From NCBI GenBank assembly GCA_005954745.1, contig CP040679.1, positions 62,001 through 126,000 of the forward strand: a stretch of 64,000 nt of DNA, written 5' to 3'. Positions 22,931-60,630 of this stretch are shown piece by piece. This DNA comes from Halostella pelagica. GTDB lineage: Archaea > Halobacteriota > Halobacteria > Halobacteriales > Natronoarchaeaceae. The position numbers and the translations under genes are program-made. The notes beneath the pieces are model-generated. The model saw only the letters and a list, made by a program, of their open reading frames with translations. It ran no database searches and was not told the DNA's origin. How positions within the stretch are numbered: position 1 is the stretch's first letter; the number at the start of each line of letters is the position of its first letter.

Positions 22931-23470
22931 ACTATAGCTGTAAGATATAGGTATTAGATATAGATATGAGAAATACCTACAGGATATGACCCAATCCTGG
23001 ATCTGGCACGCAAGACTACTGCTTGAGGCGAGGAATAGCCCCAAGTCGGCCCTATTATGTCACCAGGTAGAAATATGACGCGATAGTATAGTTGATAGGT
23101 ATAGCTATATCGTATAGGTGTAACATATAGGTAAATGAGATAGTTGCCTCCAGTCAGCGATTATCCGTACCGTCGGAGTGATAGTCCGGAGTACACCGAG
23201 ACAGTTTCTCTATAGTCCATAACTATACGTCATAGCTATAGCTTAAACCCGTCCGTTGGATGAACAACTACTGTGAGCCCTGTTCCAGAGACGTGTTCAA
23301 GTCGTACGTGAAAAGTATAGATATTAGCTATAGGTATGACCTATACATTAGTCCCAGTTCGGACGCGAACTGAAAACACCCGCCGCAGTACTGCGGTTAT
23401 ATTCAATACTATAGTTTAGTCTTATAGCTATACTATCTAGCTATACACCATATTCCAACAATTAACCTAT
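22931..23470. repeat. AT-rich repeat array upstream of parA (putative centromere)
   Basis: Five clusters of short TATAG/CTATA words at about 22931-22970, 23083-23142, 23209-23245, 23311-23350 and 23405-23447, separated by GC-normal DNA. Cores include TATAGCTATA-like palindromes. A 27-28-bp word recurs at 22942-22969 and 23313-23339 with the pattern TATAnnTATTAGnTATAnnTATGA. Cluster spacing is roughly 95-150 bp. The whole 22798-23516 region has no gene. Its position directly before parA suggests the DNA site bound by the partition complex; origin iterons are an alternative, but no replication initiator gene is seen. Confidence 0.65.
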
Positions 23471-23484
23471 AACGTCTGACCTAG

Positions 23485-23493
23485 ATTTATATC
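23485..23493 (+). promoter_or_regulatory. TATA box of parA
   Basis: ATTTATATC centred near 23489 lies 28 bp before the ATG at 23517, predicting a leaderless parA transcript beginning at the edge of the repeat array. Confidence 0.6.
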
Positions 23494-23516: not shown

Positions 23517-24374
23517 ATGTTAACCTACACGCCGGTGTCGGAGGCCGGAGGCGTCGGGAAAACGACGACTGCTGCGACACTCGCAGCGAGTCATGCGCGG
23601 GCGGGCCACGACGTTCTTGCGATCGATATGGATACGCAAAACGGAAGTCTCACGTATCTGTTCGGACCGGAGTACGACCGGGGCGACCCGGAGGTAGACA
23701 ATCTCGTTCGGCATCTGGTCGGACGACCGAAGGGGGACTTCCACGACCTCACGCACGAAGTGGGGAAGGGTATTGACCTGATCCCGTCTCACAACATGCT
23801 CGAAGACGTCCACGAGTTCCTCCTGAACGAGAAGAACCAGGCGGAGAAACTCGGCGAGTCGTACAGCATGTACCATCAGCTACACCGGGTACTCAGCGAC
23901 GCAAACGTCCGCGACGAATACGATGTAGTTATCGTCGATTCAGCGGGGAAGGCGGGTCCGATCCTCTACAACGCGCTCGTCGCGGTTCGGAACGTCGTCA
24001 TCCCATTTGAAGCGACCGCGAAAGGACAGGAATCTATCGAAGGGTTAGACGACCTGGTCGACGGACTCGAAAGCAACATCGGAGTGGACGTTGGCGTCCT
24101 GTCCGTCGTTCCGATCGGCTACAAGGATACTCGCGACCAGCGAGAGATCCTGAATGCCCTCCGTGAGAGCGGGTTCCCCGTTCCCGTCGTGATCGGGGAA
24201 CGCGGTTCGCTCATGGAGGGGTGCTGGAAAGAGCAGTGTAGCCCGTACGGGTACGTCGAGAACCACCGCGACCGTAAACGCGAGTACGAGATGGAGACGC
24301 TGGAGCAGTTCGACGACCTCGCTCGATATCTCGAACGGGAGGCGGGCGTCGAGCAACCGGAGGTGACAGCGTAA
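23517..24374 (+). CDS. parA: ParA-family ATPase (haloarchaeal type)
   Basis: A 285-residue ParA/MinD-like ATPase. The P-loop is EAGGVGKTTT with Lys15 in the GKT part; the signature lysine of the deviant Walker A motif (KGGxGKT) is replaced by alanine at residue 10. The Walker A' strand is LAIDMDTQNGS (about 34-44) and Walker B is YDVVIVDSAGKAG. A cysteine-containing segment, MEGCWKEQCSPYGY, lies in the C-terminal third. ParA proteins segregate DNA by forming ATP-dependent gradients on nucleoid DNA with a ParB-type partner. Haloarchaeal plasmids commonly carry this variant, to my knowledge. It is followed by a small gene with a one-base overlap (TAATG) and preceded by the repeat array. Confidence 0.88.
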   Translation: MLTYTPVSEAGGVGKTTTAATLAASHARAGHDVLAIDMDTQNGSLTYLFGPEYDRGDPEVDNLVRHLVGRPKGDFHDLTHEVGKGIDLIPSHNMLEDVHEFLLNEKNQAEKLGESYSMYHQLHRVLSDANVRDEYDVVIVDSAGKAGPILYNALVAVRNVVIPFEATAKGQESIEGLDDLVDGLESNIGVDVGVLSVVPIGYKDTRDQREILNALRESGFPVPVVIGERGSLMEGCWKEQCSPYGYVENHRDRKREYEMETLEQFDDLARYLEREAGVEQPEVTA

Positions 24375-24829
24375 TGGGGCTCAAGTCCGGCTCTCGCGAC
24401 GCTGGACTCGACGAATCCGAAGACGATTCAGACGGTTCCAACGATGCGAAGTCGACCGAGACAGAGAGCATCGACAAGTCCGAAACGGCCGCCCAAGAAC
24501 CGGACGAAACGCCGGAGGAAACGGCCCCTGAAACGTCAACAGAAACCGATACCGGGGCGGAACCGGAGGACCAGCGGCCGACGATGGACTCGCTCCCGTA
24601 CAAAATACGCAGAAACAAGGTCAACGAAGGTCGGGAACAGGTCCCGTATTTCCTCCGAGAGGAGATCATAGAGGCGGAAACTGAGTTACAGGAGACGCTA
24701 CAGGACCGCCTCGACGAAACCGTATACAAGTCGGACTACCGGGAAGCGTCTATGGTAGTTGCACAGCGGAACCCGGAACTCGTCGCCGAGGTTCTCCGGG
24801 AATGGGGGTACGATCTAGACACGGAATAG
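24374..24829 (+). CDS. Small acidic partner of ParA (ParB-like candidate)
   Basis: 151 residues in two parts. The first 75 are a disordered, threonine- and glutamate-rich acidic stretch. From MDSLPYKIRRNKVNEGREQV onward the protein is helical: YFLREEIIEAETELQETLQDRL then YREASMVVAQRNPELVAEVLREWGYDL. The ATG overlaps the parA stop. Position and size suit a centromere-binding or ParA-activating partner of the kind found after parA on haloarchaeal plasmids. There is no classical ParB box or HTH that I can see, so the assignment is from context. The basic patch KIRRNK could contact DNA. Confidence 0.65.
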   Translation: MGLKSGSRDAGLDESEDDSDGSNDAKSTETESIDKSETAAQEPDETPEETAPETSTETDTGAEPEDQRPTMDSLPYKIRRNKVNEGREQVPYFLREEIIEAETELQETLQDRLDETVYKSDYREASMVVAQRNPELVAEVLREWGYDLDTE

Positions 24830-25040: not shown

Positions 25041-26243
25041 ATGAGCACGATACGGAATGCGGTCCAGGGATTGCGAGGAGATGGACGCGGCTGGACACTT
25101 CTCATCGTGGCGATAGGGTGGCTGATCATCAGCGGCTCCCGCATCCTCTTTCCGGCGTTGATCCCGCAGATCAAAGTCGACTTCGCGATCAACAACGCCA
25201 GCGTTGGGTTCGCGATGACGCTGCTGTGGCTGATGTACGCAGGACTGCAGTTTCCGTCCGGGATCATGGCCGACCGAATCGGAGAGCGGAGGCTTCTCGC
25301 CGGAGGAGCTATCATTGCCGCACTCAGTTACGGCGTGTTTTACCTCTCCCCGGTTTTTGTGGGCTTTCTCGCCGCCTGTTCTCTCTTCGGTCTCGGCGCT
25401 GGACTGTTCGGGACGCCCCGTGACATACTCGTCTCACGCACGTTTCCGGACGCAGATAACACCGCGTACAGCATTATCTTCGCCGCCGGAAGCATCGGTG
25501 CTGCGTTGCTCCCCTACATCGGGGCGACAATCGCGAACCGCTTGGGGTGGCGACCGGCCGTCGTGTGGCTGCTTCCGCTACTTCTCCTGGTTGGCGCTCT
25601 CCTGTGGTGGGTTGTCCCGTCCAGAGAGTCGTCTGGAGACACCGGAACCCTCTCGGCGGTGGAAACTGCGCGTCGGACTCTCAGTGCGTTGACTGAGCGG
25701 TCGGTGCTGTTAGGCAGCAGTGTCATGGTGCTTTTCATCTTCACCTATCAGGCGCTCGTCTCCTTTCTACCGACCTATCTCGTCGAAGTCAAAGATCTCG
25801 ACCAGGGGATCGCAGCCCTGCTGTTCGGGCTGTTGTTCGTGGCCAGTGCGGTTATTCAACCTATCTCGGGCCATGTTGCGGACCAGTACGGAAAGCACGA
25901 GACCGTCCTCTCGTTGATCGCGCTGTCGACGCTGACGCTTCTGTTGCTGCCGTTTACGAATGCTCTCATCGCGCTTGCTCTGCTCGTTCCGAGTTTGAGC
26001 GTCCGGAATGCGGTTTTGCCCCTGGCGAGCGCGTTTATCGTAGCGGAACTCCCGGAGGATGTGCAAGGGGCCGTCTGGGGGTTTCTGCGAACGGTCCTGT
26101 TTGGCATCGGTGCCACGGGGTCTACAGTTATCGGACTGTTTGCCGATAGGGAGTTGTTCGATGTCGGGTTTCTCGGCCTGGCGGCGTTGACAGCAGTGGC
26201 CGCAGTGTTGTGGGTGGGGATCGCTCGGCGGTCGCCCAGTTGA
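25041..26243 (+). CDS. MFS transporter
   Basis: A 400-residue, 12-helix major facilitator. Motif A after helix 2 is SGIMADRIGERRLLAGG. Helix 4 begins GLGAGLFGTPRDILVSRTFP. The halves are joined by a charged loop (PSRESSGDTGTLSAVE), and the second half repeats a motif-A-like GHVADQYGKHE. It resembles organic-anion or nitrate-type MFS members, but the substrate cannot be told. It precedes a convergent IclR gene and is not clearly in an operon. An import role for the acid handled by the neighbouring dehydrogenase genes is possible but unsupported. Confidence 0.88.
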   Translation: MSTIRNAVQGLRGDGRGWTLLIVAIGWLIISGSRILFPALIPQIKVDFAINNASVGFAMTLLWLMYAGLQFPSGIMADRIGERRLLAGGAIIAALSYGVFYLSPVFVGFLAACSLFGLGAGLFGTPRDILVSRTFPDADNTAYSIIFAAGSIGAALLPYIGATIANRLGWRPAVVWLLPLLLLVGALLWWVVPSRESSGDTGTLSAVETARRTLSALTERSVLLGSSVMVLFIFTYQALVSFLPTYLVEVKDLDQGIAALLFGLLFVASAVIQPISGHVADQYGKHETVLSLIALSTLTLLLLPFTNALIALALLVPSLSVRNAVLPLASAFIVAELPEDVQGAVWGFLRTVLFGIGATGSTVIGLFADRELFDVGFLGLAALTAVAAVLWVGIARRSPS

Positions 26244-26460: not shown

Positions 26461-27219
26461 TCAGGTGAGCATAAAGTCAAGTTGAATGACGTTCGCCGCA
26501 TTACGCAGGGCCTCACAGAGTTCATCTCGGCGATCAGGTCGTTTGAACTGGCTACATGGGCCGGAGACGCTGATAGAACCGAGGGGGTGATCGTCGACGA
26601 TAACGGGAGTGGCGATACAACACAGGCCGTCGACGCTTTCCTCGTTATCGAACGAGATACCGGCGTCGCGGATCTCGGCTAACTCCTCTTCCAGACCGTC
26701 CCGGGAGGTGATCGTCTGTTCCGTAAACCCCTCCAGACCGTGGCGCTCGATGATATCGTCGACTCTGTCGACGGGGAGATGAGCCAGAATGGCTTTCCCA
26801 GTGGCCGTGGCGTGCATCGGACGCTGTTCACCGAGGTTCATGTACGCCTGCGTCGAATTGCTAGAGTTCGTCGCGTACACGCACGTCCCCAGGCCGTTCT
26901 CCTCGATGACGAGGTTCGTCCGTTCCTCCACCTCGGCCGCGAGTTCGTCTACCTCCTCTTTCCCCTGCCGATACAGGTCAATACTGTGCTGTACTGTCGC
27001 TCCGAGCTGGAGGTACTGGCAACTCAATCTGTACAACCCATCTTCCTTGATCAGATATCCTGCCGAGGAGAGCGTGTTCAGATGCGTGTAGACGGTACTT
27101 TTCGGCAACGAAACCACGTCTGCGACCTCGGAGACGCCGATAGGACCGCGGCGCTGGATGACTTCGACGATGTCGAACGAGCGTTCGACAGCTCCGATAG
27201 TTTTCGAATCCGTATCCAT
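26461..27219 (-). CDS. IclR family transcriptional regulator
   Basis: A 252-residue regulator of standard IclR architecture. An N-terminal winged helix at about 8-70 has SEVADVVSLPKSTVYTHLNTL as helix-turn-helix. A C-terminal ligand-binding domain at about 80-250 has MHATATGKAILAHLP, typical of the effector pocket rim, and CCIATPVIVDDHPLGSISVSGP near the end. IclR proteins respond to small carboxylates and control catabolic operons. It sits directly downstream of the E1 alpha/beta operon, so it is the best local candidate to control that operon or the LUD/ABC operon. A TATA-like AAGTATATC on the minus strand lies 30 bp before its start. Confidence 0.92.
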   Translation of the reverse strand: MDTDSKTIGAVERSFDIVEVIQRRGPIGVSEVADVVSLPKSTVYTHLNTLSSAGYLIKEDGLYRLSCQYLQLGATVQHSIDLYRQGKEEVDELAAEVEERTNLVIEENGLGTCVYATNSSNSTQAYMNLGEQRPMHATATGKAILAHLPVDRVDDIIERHGLEGFTEQTITSRDGLEEELAEIRDAGISFDNEESVDGLCCIATPVIVDDHPLGSISVSGPCSQFKRPDRRDELCEALRNAANVIQLDFMLT

Positions 27220-27403: not shown

Positions 27404-28372
27404 TCAGTAGTTGACGGTTTCCGTGATAGCTTCCTCGATACGGGGGGGCTGGGGGATGTAGAAGTCCTCCATAGCCAACAGTGGAACCGGAACGTCGAAC
27501 CCGGTCACCCGTTCGACCGGCGCTTCGAGGAACATCAACGCCTCGTCGTTTATCGTGGCGATGAGTTCTCCGGCGAACCCGCCGCTTTTCGGGGCCTCGT
27601 GGACGACGACGCACCGACCGGTCTTTTTCACCGACCGGACCACCGTCTCCCGGTCGAGCGGTGAGATCGAACGGAGGTCGATCAGTTCGACGTCGATCCC
27701 GTCGAGATTGTCGACGGCCTCGCGCGTCTTGTGCATCATCGCACCCCAGGCGATCACGGTGACGTCTTCGCCCTCCCGCCTGACTGCGGCCTCGCCCAGC
27801 GGTTCGGTGTACGTCCCATCGGGAACTTCCTCCCGGAACGACCGGTAGACGTGTTTCGGTTCCATGAACAGCACGGGGTCGGGGTCGCGGATGGCGCTGA
27901 TCAGCATCCCTTTCGCGTCGTGTGGGGTGCTCGGAACGGCCACCTTCAGTCCGGGGATGTGGCTGTACACGGCTTCGAGGCTCTCGGAGTGGTGTTCGAG
28001 CGCACGGACGCCCGCACCGTAGGGGGTACGAACGGTCATCGGTGCCGTGAGCTCACCGCGGGTCCGCCAGCGTATCCGACTCGCGTTAGTGACTAGCTGG
28101 TCGAACGCCGGTGGAAGGAACCCTGAGAACTGGATCTCGGCGACCGGCCGGTATCCGTACGTCGCGAGACCGATCGCCGCGCCGACGATAGCGATCTCGG
28201 AGAGCGGCGTGTCGAGAACGCGGTCCCCGCCGAACGTCTCCTGGAGGCCCTCGGTCGCGCGGAAAACACCGCCGGACTCCGCTACGTCCTGACCGAACAC
28301 AAGCGTGCGGTCGTCGGTGGCCATCTCCTCGTGCAAAGCGTCGTTTATCGCTTCGATTATCGTTGCCTGCAT
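27404..28372 (-). CDS. 2-oxoacid dehydrogenase E1 component, beta subunit
   Basis: A 322-residue transketolase-like protein. It starts MQATIIEAINDALHEEMATD and has VFGQDVAESGGVFRATEGL, the conserved E1-beta segment with a glutamate that activates the thiamine diphosphate. Later motifs are AEIQFSGFLPPAFDQLVTNA and the C-terminal transketolase domain (RCVVVHEAPKSGGFAGE; VERVTGFDVPVPL). With E1 alpha it decarboxylates a 2-oxoacid and passes the acyl group to a lipoyl E2. The gene begins 3 bp after the alpha gene. E2 and E3 are not in the window. Whether the substrate is pyruvate, a branched-chain oxoacid, acetoin or an aromatic oxoacid is open. Confidence 0.93.
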   Translation of the reverse strand: MQATIIEAINDALHEEMATDDRTLVFGQDVAESGGVFRATEGLQETFGGDRVLDTPLSEIAIVGAAIGLATYGYRPVAEIQFSGFLPPAFDQLVTNASRIRWRTRGELTAPMTVRTPYGAGVRALEHHSESLEAVYSHIPGLKVAVPSTPHDAKGMLISAIRDPDPVLFMEPKHVYRSFREEVPDGTYTEPLGEAAVRREGEDVTVIAWGAMMHKTREAVDNLDGIDVELIDLRSISPLDRETVVRSVKKTGRCVVVHEAPKSGGFAGELIATINDEALMFLEAPVERVTGFDVPVPLLAMEDFYIPQPPRIEEAITETVNY

Positions 28373-28375
28373 GGT

Positions 28376-29533
28376 TCACCCCTTGGGGCGCTGCTCGATG
28401 TGCTCGTACATGTCCGGTCGTTCGTCCAGCAGTTCCTCGTACTCAGATAGCTGTCGACGGAGTTCCGGAGGCATCTCCTCGTGGAGATGCTCGAATATCT
28501 CCCGGACGTCCCGCTCGGCGAACTCGTCGGCGGCCGCGACGGCGTCGTCGAACATCTCGTCTATCTCCTCGCGAACCGCCTCCTCGTCTATCGCCTCGAA
28601 CAGTCCCTCCGACTGAAGGAACTCGCGGTAGCGCTCTAGCGGGTCCTGTTTCTCCCACTCCTCGACTTCGGACCGCTCGCGATAGCGCGAGGGGTCGTCG
28701 CTCGTCGTATGGGCGGCCCGGCGATAGGTGACGGCCTCAACTAGCGTCGGCGTGCCATCCATCGCGTTCTCGCGTGCAGTCAAAACTGCGTTGTACACCG
28801 CGAGAACGTCGTTGCCGTCGACACGGATACCGTCGATCCCGTATCCGAGCGCCTTCTGGGCTACCGTGTCGGCGGCGGTCTGCTCCTCGAACGGGAGCGA
28901 GATGGCGTACTGGTTGTTCTGCGTGAAAAACACGGCGGGCGCATCGAGTACGCCAGCGAAATTGATCCCCTCGTGAAAGGCCCCGGTAGACGTTGCACCG
29001 TCGCCGAGGTTGGCGAACGCGACGGAGTCGGCGTCGTCGAGTTTCATTCCCCACGCAGTCCCCGTGACGACCGGGACGTGCGACCCGATGGAGATGGCAA
29101 CGCCGAACGAGTTCGCGCCGTCCATTCGGGACGCGTCCTCCAGTCCGCGCCAGTACAGCAGGAGGTCCCGCATCGAGAGACCGTGTATTAGGAGCGTGCC
29201 GGCCTCCCGTCCGTACGGAAAGATCCTGTCCTGGTCGGAAAGGGCGAACGCGCTCCCGATGATGCTGGCTTCCTGTCCCCGGCCGGAGGCGTACGTGCCG
29301 AGTTTGCCCCGTCGCTGGAGTTTCGTCGCCCGGTTGTCGAACACCCGCTGGAGAACCATCCACCGATAGAGTTCTCGGAACGTTTCGTCGTCGAGGTCGG
29401 GCAACCGTTCGGCGTCGTAGGAACCGTCCGGTTCGAGTATTCTGTACGTGTCCACGTCTACGTCGTCCTGCGAGACCGTTTCCGCATCGGCGGAGATCGG
29501 TCTCGCTGGCGCTGGCCGCGGATCCTCGTTCAT
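28376..29533 (-). CDS. 2-oxoacid dehydrogenase E1 component, alpha subunit
   Basis: A 385-residue subunit that binds thiamine diphosphate and magnesium. The ThDP motif starts GDGATSTGAFHEGINFAG at 177 and ends in TQNNQYA near 204-210. The substrate-side motif GRGQEASIIGSAFAL is at 85-99. The 45-residue acidic N-terminus is longer than in bacterial relatives. It is the first gene of a two-gene operon with E1 beta. A TATA-like CTTTATATC on the minus strand (centre about 29565) is 32 bp before the ATG. It diverges from the LUD-protein operon across 130 bp, so the two are likely co-regulated and may act on one substrate. Confidence 0.93.
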   Translation of the reverse strand: MNEDPRPAPARPISADAETVSQDDVDVDTYRILEPDGSYDAERLPDLDDETFRELYRWMVLQRVFDNRATKLQRRGKLGTYASGRGQEASIIGSAFALSDQDRIFPYGREAGTLLIHGLSMRDLLLYWRGLEDASRMDGANSFGVAISIGSHVPVVTGTAWGMKLDDADSVAFANLGDGATSTGAFHEGINFAGVLDAPAVFFTQNNQYAISLPFEEQTAADTVAQKALGYGIDGIRVDGNDVLAVYNAVLTARENAMDGTPTLVEAVTYRRAAHTTSDDPSRYRERSEVEEWEKQDPLERYREFLQSEGLFEAIDEEAVREEIDEMFDDAVAAADEFAERDVREIFEHLHEEMPPELRRQLSEYEELLDERPDMYEHIEQRPKG

Positions 29534-59976: not shown

Positions 59977-60103
59977 CGCGGCCTTCTTCGCTGCCGTATG
60001 ACAGTTCGCTACTCCTTCTGCAGTCGTACCGTCGGGAGCAACTTCTCCAATGATACCAATGCGACAGTGCCGAACGAGGAAGATCCACGTGTTGCCTATC
60101 GCA

Positions 60104-60546
60104 TGTATACGGTGTTCGTATACGGTAGTAGTCTGGAATATGGTAGGACCCCGTCTTCCCGGTTGCGCGCACGTGTCTGATCTGACGGTACAGGCACAAC
60201 CCTGCAAACAAACACACCCTTAGTCCGTGTTATTTTGCGACGTATTCGAAGTCGTATTCGCTGTTCGTATACGCGAGTGATTCCCCGGGCAGCGAAAACA
60301 CGTCGTACCGGGCCGGTGAGACAACACACACTTAGGGTGTGTTTTTCGCCTCTACTTCACCAGACCCCTGAGAGATGCCGGTCACAAAAAATAACCAGTC
60401 CCGGAAACTGAACGCGTTCGTCAAGATAACTACGACAGCGGGAGTACGGCCGAGAGTTGTCGTACATTCAGAAGTGTTCCCAGTCGAGCGGCTAAGACAA
60501 CAACCTATAGGGTGTGTTTTGAGAGCGTATACGGTATCCGTATACG
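60104..60546. promoter_or_regulatory. Array of paired CGTATACG sites and AGGGTGTGT words
   Basis: Three paired sites with a 5-bp spacer: TGTATACG-GTGTT-CGTATACG (60104-60124), CGTATTCG-CTGTT-CGTATACG (60253-60273, with a further half site CGTATTCG at 60241-60248) and CGTATACG-GTATC-CGTATACG (60526-60546). AGGGTGTGT occurs at 60334-60342 and 60509-60517, and in reverse at 60212-60220. The whole 59977-60630 stretch has no convincing gene and lies between convergent genes. A related paired site lies upstream of the second paaA. Confidence 0.6.
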
Positions 60547-60630
60547 CCCGATACTACGGAGCGGTAGCTCACCAAGAACGGGACAAGAGAACTCCGACGC
60601 TACGACGGCAAGGGAGGAAACTCTGACTCC

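Follow-up and report, generated by a model that had tools for sequence, protein, structure and literature searches.

A haloarchaeal ParA without the P-loop signature lysine: conserved lysine 169, a probable non-ParB partner and an upstream array of 13-bp pitch

The window analysed here, a stretch of 64,000 nucleotides of Halostella pelagica DNA, is part of contig C2 (322,915 bp) in a genome of four contigs (C1, 3,203,198 bp; C3, 316,071 bp; C4, 100,265 bp). It contains a two-gene operon encoding a ParA-type ATPase and a small partner protein, preceded by an array of short repeats, and the features at this locus are as follows (positions are those of the window).

22932-22963, no strand assigned: three to four further boxes, apart from the main array and also spaced at 13 bp
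23087-23471, no strand assigned: main TATAG/CTATA box array at 13-bp pitch, probable centromere and operator, from word counts and lag counts; groups at 23087-23130, 23210-23241, 23316-23345 and 23409-23445, single box at 23467
23486-23492, plus strand: TTTATAT, possible archaeal TATA box read from the sequence, with the start codon of parA 25 nt downstream
23517-24374, plus strand: parA, open reading frame of 285 aa encoding a ParA-type ATPase whose P-loop lacks the signature lysine (Pfam AAA_31, E 2.8e-22)
23544-23564, plus strand: P-loop AGGVGKT, residues 10-16 in the sequence, with A10 replacing the signature lysine and K15 kept
24021-24023, plus strand: codon of K169, proposed stand-in for the signature lysine and equivalent to K151 of 6noo, from its conservation, the alignment with 6noo and the exclusion with the P-loop lysine
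24374-24829, plus strand: partner gene, open reading frame of 151 aa that shares one base with the stop codon of parA (TAATG), its homologues also starting at or close to that stop codon
24374-24409, plus strand: N-terminal motif of the partner, MGLKSGSRDAGL, with K4 (95/98 homologues) and G6 (98/98), proposed ParA contact
24593-24817, plus strand: C-terminal domain of the partner, residues 74-148, a probable relative of the McdB-like 6noy domain by conserved residues and hhalign, proposed to bind the array or to form oligomers

Judging by eye, an MFS-like transporter gene adjoins the operon (25041-26243), and an IclR-like regulator (26461-27219, minus strand) and genes resembling 2-oxoacid dehydrogenase E1 beta (27404-28372) and alpha (28376-29533), both on the minus strand, are located nearby.

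The ParA protein begins with MLTYTPVSEAGGVGKTT, and its P-loop context SEAGGVGKTT has alanine at residue 10, where ParA/MinD proteins have the signature lysine, as the original prediction had read from this open reading frame. The AlphaFold2 single-chain model (pLDDT 88.9) was matched by VIA-align to ParA 8ray (Z 30.2) and McdA 6non (Z 27.1). The fold, the catalytic P-loop lysine K15 and the residues D39 and D141 of canonical ParA/MinD proteins are all present, the three residues in 99/99 relatives, and the lysine that starts the canonical KGGxxK[ST] motif is absent (A10; K in 0/99 relatives). These relatives were obtained from 118 places, which gave 103 distinct proteins, of which 99 were aligned after dropping L002, L003 and L074, which have the signature lysine, and L072, whose P-loop is degenerate; their identity to the window ParA ranges from 89% down to about 31%, and homologues of 87-89% identity occur in Haloferax. 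Position 10 is alanine in 81 and serine in 18 of these haloarchaeal proteins, which bears out the earlier suggestion of a haloarchaeal lineage trait. Judging from this alignment, A10 is neither a sequencing error nor a matter of chance, lysine being absent there from all 99 distinct relatives. In the same genome, the signature lysine is present in the nearest other ParA matches, which are encoded on C3 and C4.

A family-profile search of 294 genomes of the phylum gave matches at E <= 1e-20 in 42, all from the window's own order, and its weaker matches include ParAs with the signature lysine (hereafter K-type). In PLSDB, 208 plasmid records matched with at least 80% of the ParA query covered, K-type ones counted in, and some family members are carried by chromosome-sized contigs (e.g., G037:C1 and G067:C1). 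Three IMG/VR contigs of 47-54 kb (L250, L251, and L252), which we regard as plasmids or plasmid-like viruses of haloarchaea, encode family ParAs with A10 and K169 (51-52% identity), and a Thermus ParA query found no relative among the viral contigs. The open-access PMC literature yielded nothing on a haloarchaeal A/S substitution at the signature-lysine position of ParA, and a search there for the motif AGGVGKT had its sole match in work on actinobacterial nucleotide cyclases.

The partner was compared among 98 homologues, leaving out L001 (a copy), L002, L003, L073, and L088 (a damaged-looking reading); L072 and L074 had no partner under the distance rule used. In 98/98 loci the partner starts at -8 to +1 relative to the parA stop codon. 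Residues 13-70 of the window partner are acidic (22 D/E vs. 3 K/R), and the middle part of the protein is acidic and variable across the homologues, while model helices were placed at 96-113, 119-132, and 134-143, the model being confident only about residues 91-150. The window partner had no Pfam match with an E-value of 1 or below, and therefore carries no ParB or HTH signature by sequence; both the acidic and helical halves and the want of a ParB fold or HTH had been noted from the letters of the window, and both descriptions stand. Pfam and NCBIfam matches of the partner family were at chance level: among the 25 families listed for 85 members searched against Pfam there was no ParB or HTH, and each of 19 more families matched one member or a few. 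Comparison of the partner with individual ParD and HTH proteins likewise brought up nothing. Other ParA partners contact their ATPase via basic residues near the N terminus (PMC12204374), and by analogy we propose K4 of the N-terminal motif as a putative ParA contact.

The C-terminal domain is conserved as well, with R80, R87, D121, E124, and G145 each present in 98/98 homologues. The partners on eight cyanobacterial plasmids belong to the family of the 6noy 'McdB' (E 6e-52), and the haloarchaeal C-terminal domain (28 sequences) was matched to that of the cyanobacterial partners by hhalign with a probability of 79 (P 1.6e-5) and a score of 31.4 against a shuffled maximum of 15.0, with 0/60 shuffles as good; against the full-length cyanobacterial partners the probability was 73 (P 3.1e-5). 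The window partner is probably related, at some distance, to the McdB-like 6noy rather than being a ParB, and it is the distance of this homology that makes the assignment probable rather than certain. Profile searches of PDB sequences with the partner returned chance matches only, 6noy not among them, and Foldseek and VIA-align found no fold match with the partner model, a result that is uninformative either way.

Within a partition role, the partner could instead be a centromere-binding protein of the ribbon-helix-helix kind known from type Ib systems, with a disordered N terminus followed by a possible strand, helix, loop, and helix, a register that L070 and L078 fit by eye. We find this rather doubtful, because the partner profile gave no signal against 30 haloarchaeal RHH_1 stretches (16/60 shuffles scored as high) and because 6noy is described as an antiparallel coiled-coil dimer (PMC10554743).

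The array upstream of parA is about 540 bp long, leaving about 45 nt between its end and the start codon. The 500 nt upstream of parA contain 20 CTATA/TATAG words, compared with about five in shuffles, at spacings of 13 bp and its multiples. Twenty-four non-redundant loci of the window's clade have 324 such sites, or 13.5 per locus vs. 3.2 in shuffles, and the first 500 nt of parA in the same loci have 0.56 per locus. In other subclades the words are TGAAC, ACAGA, and CTAAGA, again at 13-bp spacing, and these are at background level in the window's clade. A word-free lag count upstream of parA in 97 loci gave 1235 at lag 13, compared with 61 expected (z 125), and the best single lag was 13, 26, or 39 in 91/97 loci. 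Controls inside parA (z -3.2) and upstream of 30 K-type haloarchaeal parA genes (z -0.6) showed no such excess; the latter peaked at 9 and 18 bp, and the upstreams of eight cyanobacterial plasmid parA genes peaked at 16 bp. Repeat pitch may mark the kind of partner protein. The upstreams of L002 and L003, from C3 and C4 of the window's genome, have repeats as well, at the 9- and 18-bp pitch of the K-type upstreams.

In a scan of the whole of C2, the stretch at window position 23051 ranked first both by the combined count at lags 13 and 26 (26, next 12) and by words (20, next 4). The second-highest 13/26-bp lag score on C2 belongs to window positions 60101-60550. In the 450 nt after the partner gene, the lag-13 count was 140 vs. 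64 expected (z 8.3), with 13 as the best lag in 9/99 loci, and some replicons may accordingly carry a second, weaker array downstream. Nothing on 13-bp arrays at haloarchaeal parA was found in the open-access PMC literature.

Centromere-like repeats adjoin parAB here, as in type I partition systems. A centromere bound by a repeating adaptor is expected to keep its pitch while its words vary, and on this pattern we regard the array as a probable centromere. It might alternatively be no more than an iteron for replication or an operator for these genes, a reading to which its end point, close to the start codon and to TTTATAT, a possible TATA box by the archaeal promoter rule, lends some weight. 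Operator and centromere can coincide. We consider it unlikely that the array is nothing more than an operator or an iteron, given its length and the way its words track the subclades of ParA and partner, and the sole Cdc6_C match on C2 (C2:147883-148167) lies about 61 kb from it and from parA.

Solved structures matching the window ParA include the lysine-less 'Cyanothece McdA' (6non, 6noo, and 6nop). ParA residues 133-200 align at equal length with residues 135-202 of the 6noo chain, which reads IPAEASTKG at the place of K169, and the chain residue K171 aligned to K169 is native K151, because 230 printed residues of 6noo are identical to the ParA of pP742402 from PCC 7424. The window ParA accordingly has both sequence features of the 6noo type, no signature lysine in the P-loop and a lysine at the K151 column. 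This column (context PFEATAKG) is K in 96/99 haloarchaeal relatives, and the remaining three (L069, L070, and L078) have R at 168 in lieu of K169; among the K-type ParAs of solved structure it is Y, F, or L. In the AlphaFold2 model K169 follows the strand VVIPFEA, where the helix 168-188 starts, with a confidence of only about 70-81 across residues 161-190.

A lysine far from the P-loop is said, in the abstract of Schumacher et al. from 2019, to make the ATP sandwich dimer of McdA. In a review, McdA is described as lacking the signature lysine and yet having strong ATPase activity (PMC9178275). For pNOB8 ParA, the canonical lysine is described as entering the neighbor's active site and contacting its ATP (PMC5393062). 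The substitution had been thought to be of undescribed mechanism, a view that the alignment of K169 with K151 of the lysine-less 6noo overturns, since a structural precedent exists. That another conserved lysine replaces the signature residue, named at the outset as a way in which the idea could fail, is borne out at the level of homology, through 6noo K151 and the count over 264 open reading frames given below. K169, the repeat array, and the partner's short N-terminal motif had no place in the original prediction.

Lysines at the two positions exclude each other. Among 264 distinct ParA-type open reading frames (266 rows, two left out unscored), K at column 169 was found in 0/137 with the P-loop lysine and in 123/127 without it, the four exceptions being the three R168 proteins and one viral reading frame with R10. 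The lysine-less sequences of this set include plasmid ParAs of cyanobacteria, Thermus, Nostoc, and Streptomyces. The exclusion is strict at column 169 only, because K or R stands somewhere in columns 168-170 of 13/39 K-type proteins (11 PEKLNAN-like and two LSKPS). In a covariation count of 171 rows, 22 were left out for a gap at a scored column or a short match; 20 of these are K-type by their P-loop or, where included, by the later tree alignment, and L157 and L004 are incomplete. As an extra check, five additional plasmid ParAs agreed with the rule: those of Thermus, Deinococcus, and Calothrix were found to lack the P-loop lysine and to have K169, while those of Amycolatopsis and Piscirickettsia show the reverse.

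Our phylogenetic analysis used hand-picked subsets of 60 and 71 sequences. With the trait columns masked, the starred branches of the 71-sequence tree require at least four changes of P-loop state. Starred branches hold two independent pairs in the 60-sequence tree and four in the 71-sequence tree; all informative pairs run in the expected direction and none is opposed, four pairs being too few for significance. In the 60-sequence tree the haloarchaeal and cyanobacterial lysine-less ParAs form separate groups on long branches with weak deep support, so that both convergence and very old common descent are possible.

K169 might have another task, such as DNA binding or partner docking, with the contact in trans made by R55 or R255, or by none; R55 (R in 92 and K in 7 of the 99) and R255 (R in 98/99) are as conserved as K169. 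We think this quite unlikely, since K169 alone aligns with 6noo K151 and its column excludes the P-loop lysine over the 264 reading frames and several lineages, a count in which R55 and R255 were unscored. We know of no structural precedent for R55 or R255 as the trans-acting residue.

The best explanation of the locus, which we hold to be likely, is a two-gene partition operon of the 322,915-bp secondary replicon, in which the partner sits on the array, ParA works as a ratchet on bulk DNA, and K169 replaces the signature lysine. The partner would bind the 13-bp-pitch array upstream of parA, so that the plasmid becomes the cargo, and its N-terminal peptide would touch ParA. ParA would bind ATP, dimerise face to face, and sit on bulk DNA, K169 making the cross-dimer contact to the neighbor's ATP that is the job of lysine 10 in canonical ParA, comparable to K151 in the Cyanothece McdA. 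The partner, presumably through its N terminus, would then trigger ATP hydrolysis and release ParA, as in other ParA ratchets. Judging from the replicon context and the upstream array, a role in segregation is most likely. That the operon positions a protein cargo, like carboxysome McdAB, is very improbable, even though the closest solved pair (6noo and 6noy) is named after carboxysome maintenance and the window partner is a non-ParB protein, because that pair is plasmid-encoded (by sequence match and according to PMC10554743) and because an array of conserved pitch, which a protein cargo would not need, stands directly before parA in nearly all loci.

On balance, we are inclined to believe that ParA motors use two exchangeable wirings, with the trans-acting lysine located in the P-loop in one and at the K151/K169 column in the other, and that at least four switches between them occurred among archaeal and bacterial plasmid ParAs. 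In a large and so far undescribed haloarchaeal branch, the second wiring would go together with an adaptor that is McdB-like and not a ParB, and the centromere would have words varying by subclade at a fixed 13-bp pitch, such that the fold of the adaptor dictates the pitch and not the sequence.

To our knowledge, plasmid segregation in Archaea is little studied. An apparent defect becomes a testable rule here: where a ParA lacks the signature lysine, a lysine should be sought at the 6noo K151 column. The results also provide candidate archaeal centromeres, as 13-bp arrays, at about 90 loci, point to a class of non-ParB partners in Archaea, and suggest that plasmid partition ATPases are numerous and include the crystallised 'McdA'. 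As far as the open-access PMC literature goes, the apparent novelties are the haloarchaeal family's size, an exclusion rule spanning plasmids of two domains, the link between the partner and the McdB-like family, and the 13-bp arrays.

Among known systems, the 'McdA' and 'McdB-like' proteins of Cyanothece PCC 7424 (6non, 6noo, 6nop, and 6noy) resemble the window pair most closely in having no signature lysine and a lysine at the K151/K169 column, in being plasmid-borne, and in having, directly after parA, the gene of a small partner that is not a ParB and whose C-terminal domain is probably related. They differ in that the ParAs share only about 22-25% identity and fall in separate tree groups, the N-terminal motif of the Cyanothece partner is basic where that of the window partner is K-x-G, and the upstream repeats of Cyanothece-type plasmids have a 16-bp pitch (in 5/8) instead of 13. 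On plasmid pP742402 of Gloeothece citriformis (Cyanothece) PCC 7424 (L205, 2501-3750), the ParA matches 6noo letter for letter over those 230 residues and the following gene encodes the 'McdB' of 6noy; the two genes resemble an operon for plasmid partition more than one for carboxysomes.

The ParAm of Thermus thermophilus HB27 pTT27 has the same lysine swap as the window ParA (HAGGAGKT with VETSVKG). ParAm is 322 aa long and the megaplasmid Par system is described as essential for megaplasmid maintenance (PMC4409726); unlike the window ParA, ParAm has an N-terminal extension, described as an HTH, and unlike the window partner, ParBm is a true ParB with a 14-bp palindromic parS (PMC4409726; PMC10085754). 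A ParA of such wiring thus functions in the living cell, paired in that case with a true ParB. The McdA/McdB system of Synechococcus elongatus, likened here by published description, is similar in having SGGQGKT without the signature lysine and a partner unrelated to ParB, and differs from the role proposed for the window in its protein cargo, the carboxysome; beta-McdA type 1 is described as having a large mid-protein extension, unlike the window ParA. Canonical ParA/Soj proteins with KGGxGK[ST] (1wcv, 6iub, and 8ray) and the K-type ParAs of C3 and C4 share with the window ParA the fold, the downstream partner, and the upstream repeats, but they have the signature lysine and no K at column 169, and the repeats upstream of K-type haloarchaeal parA genes are spaced at 9 and 18 bp where those of the window are at 13.
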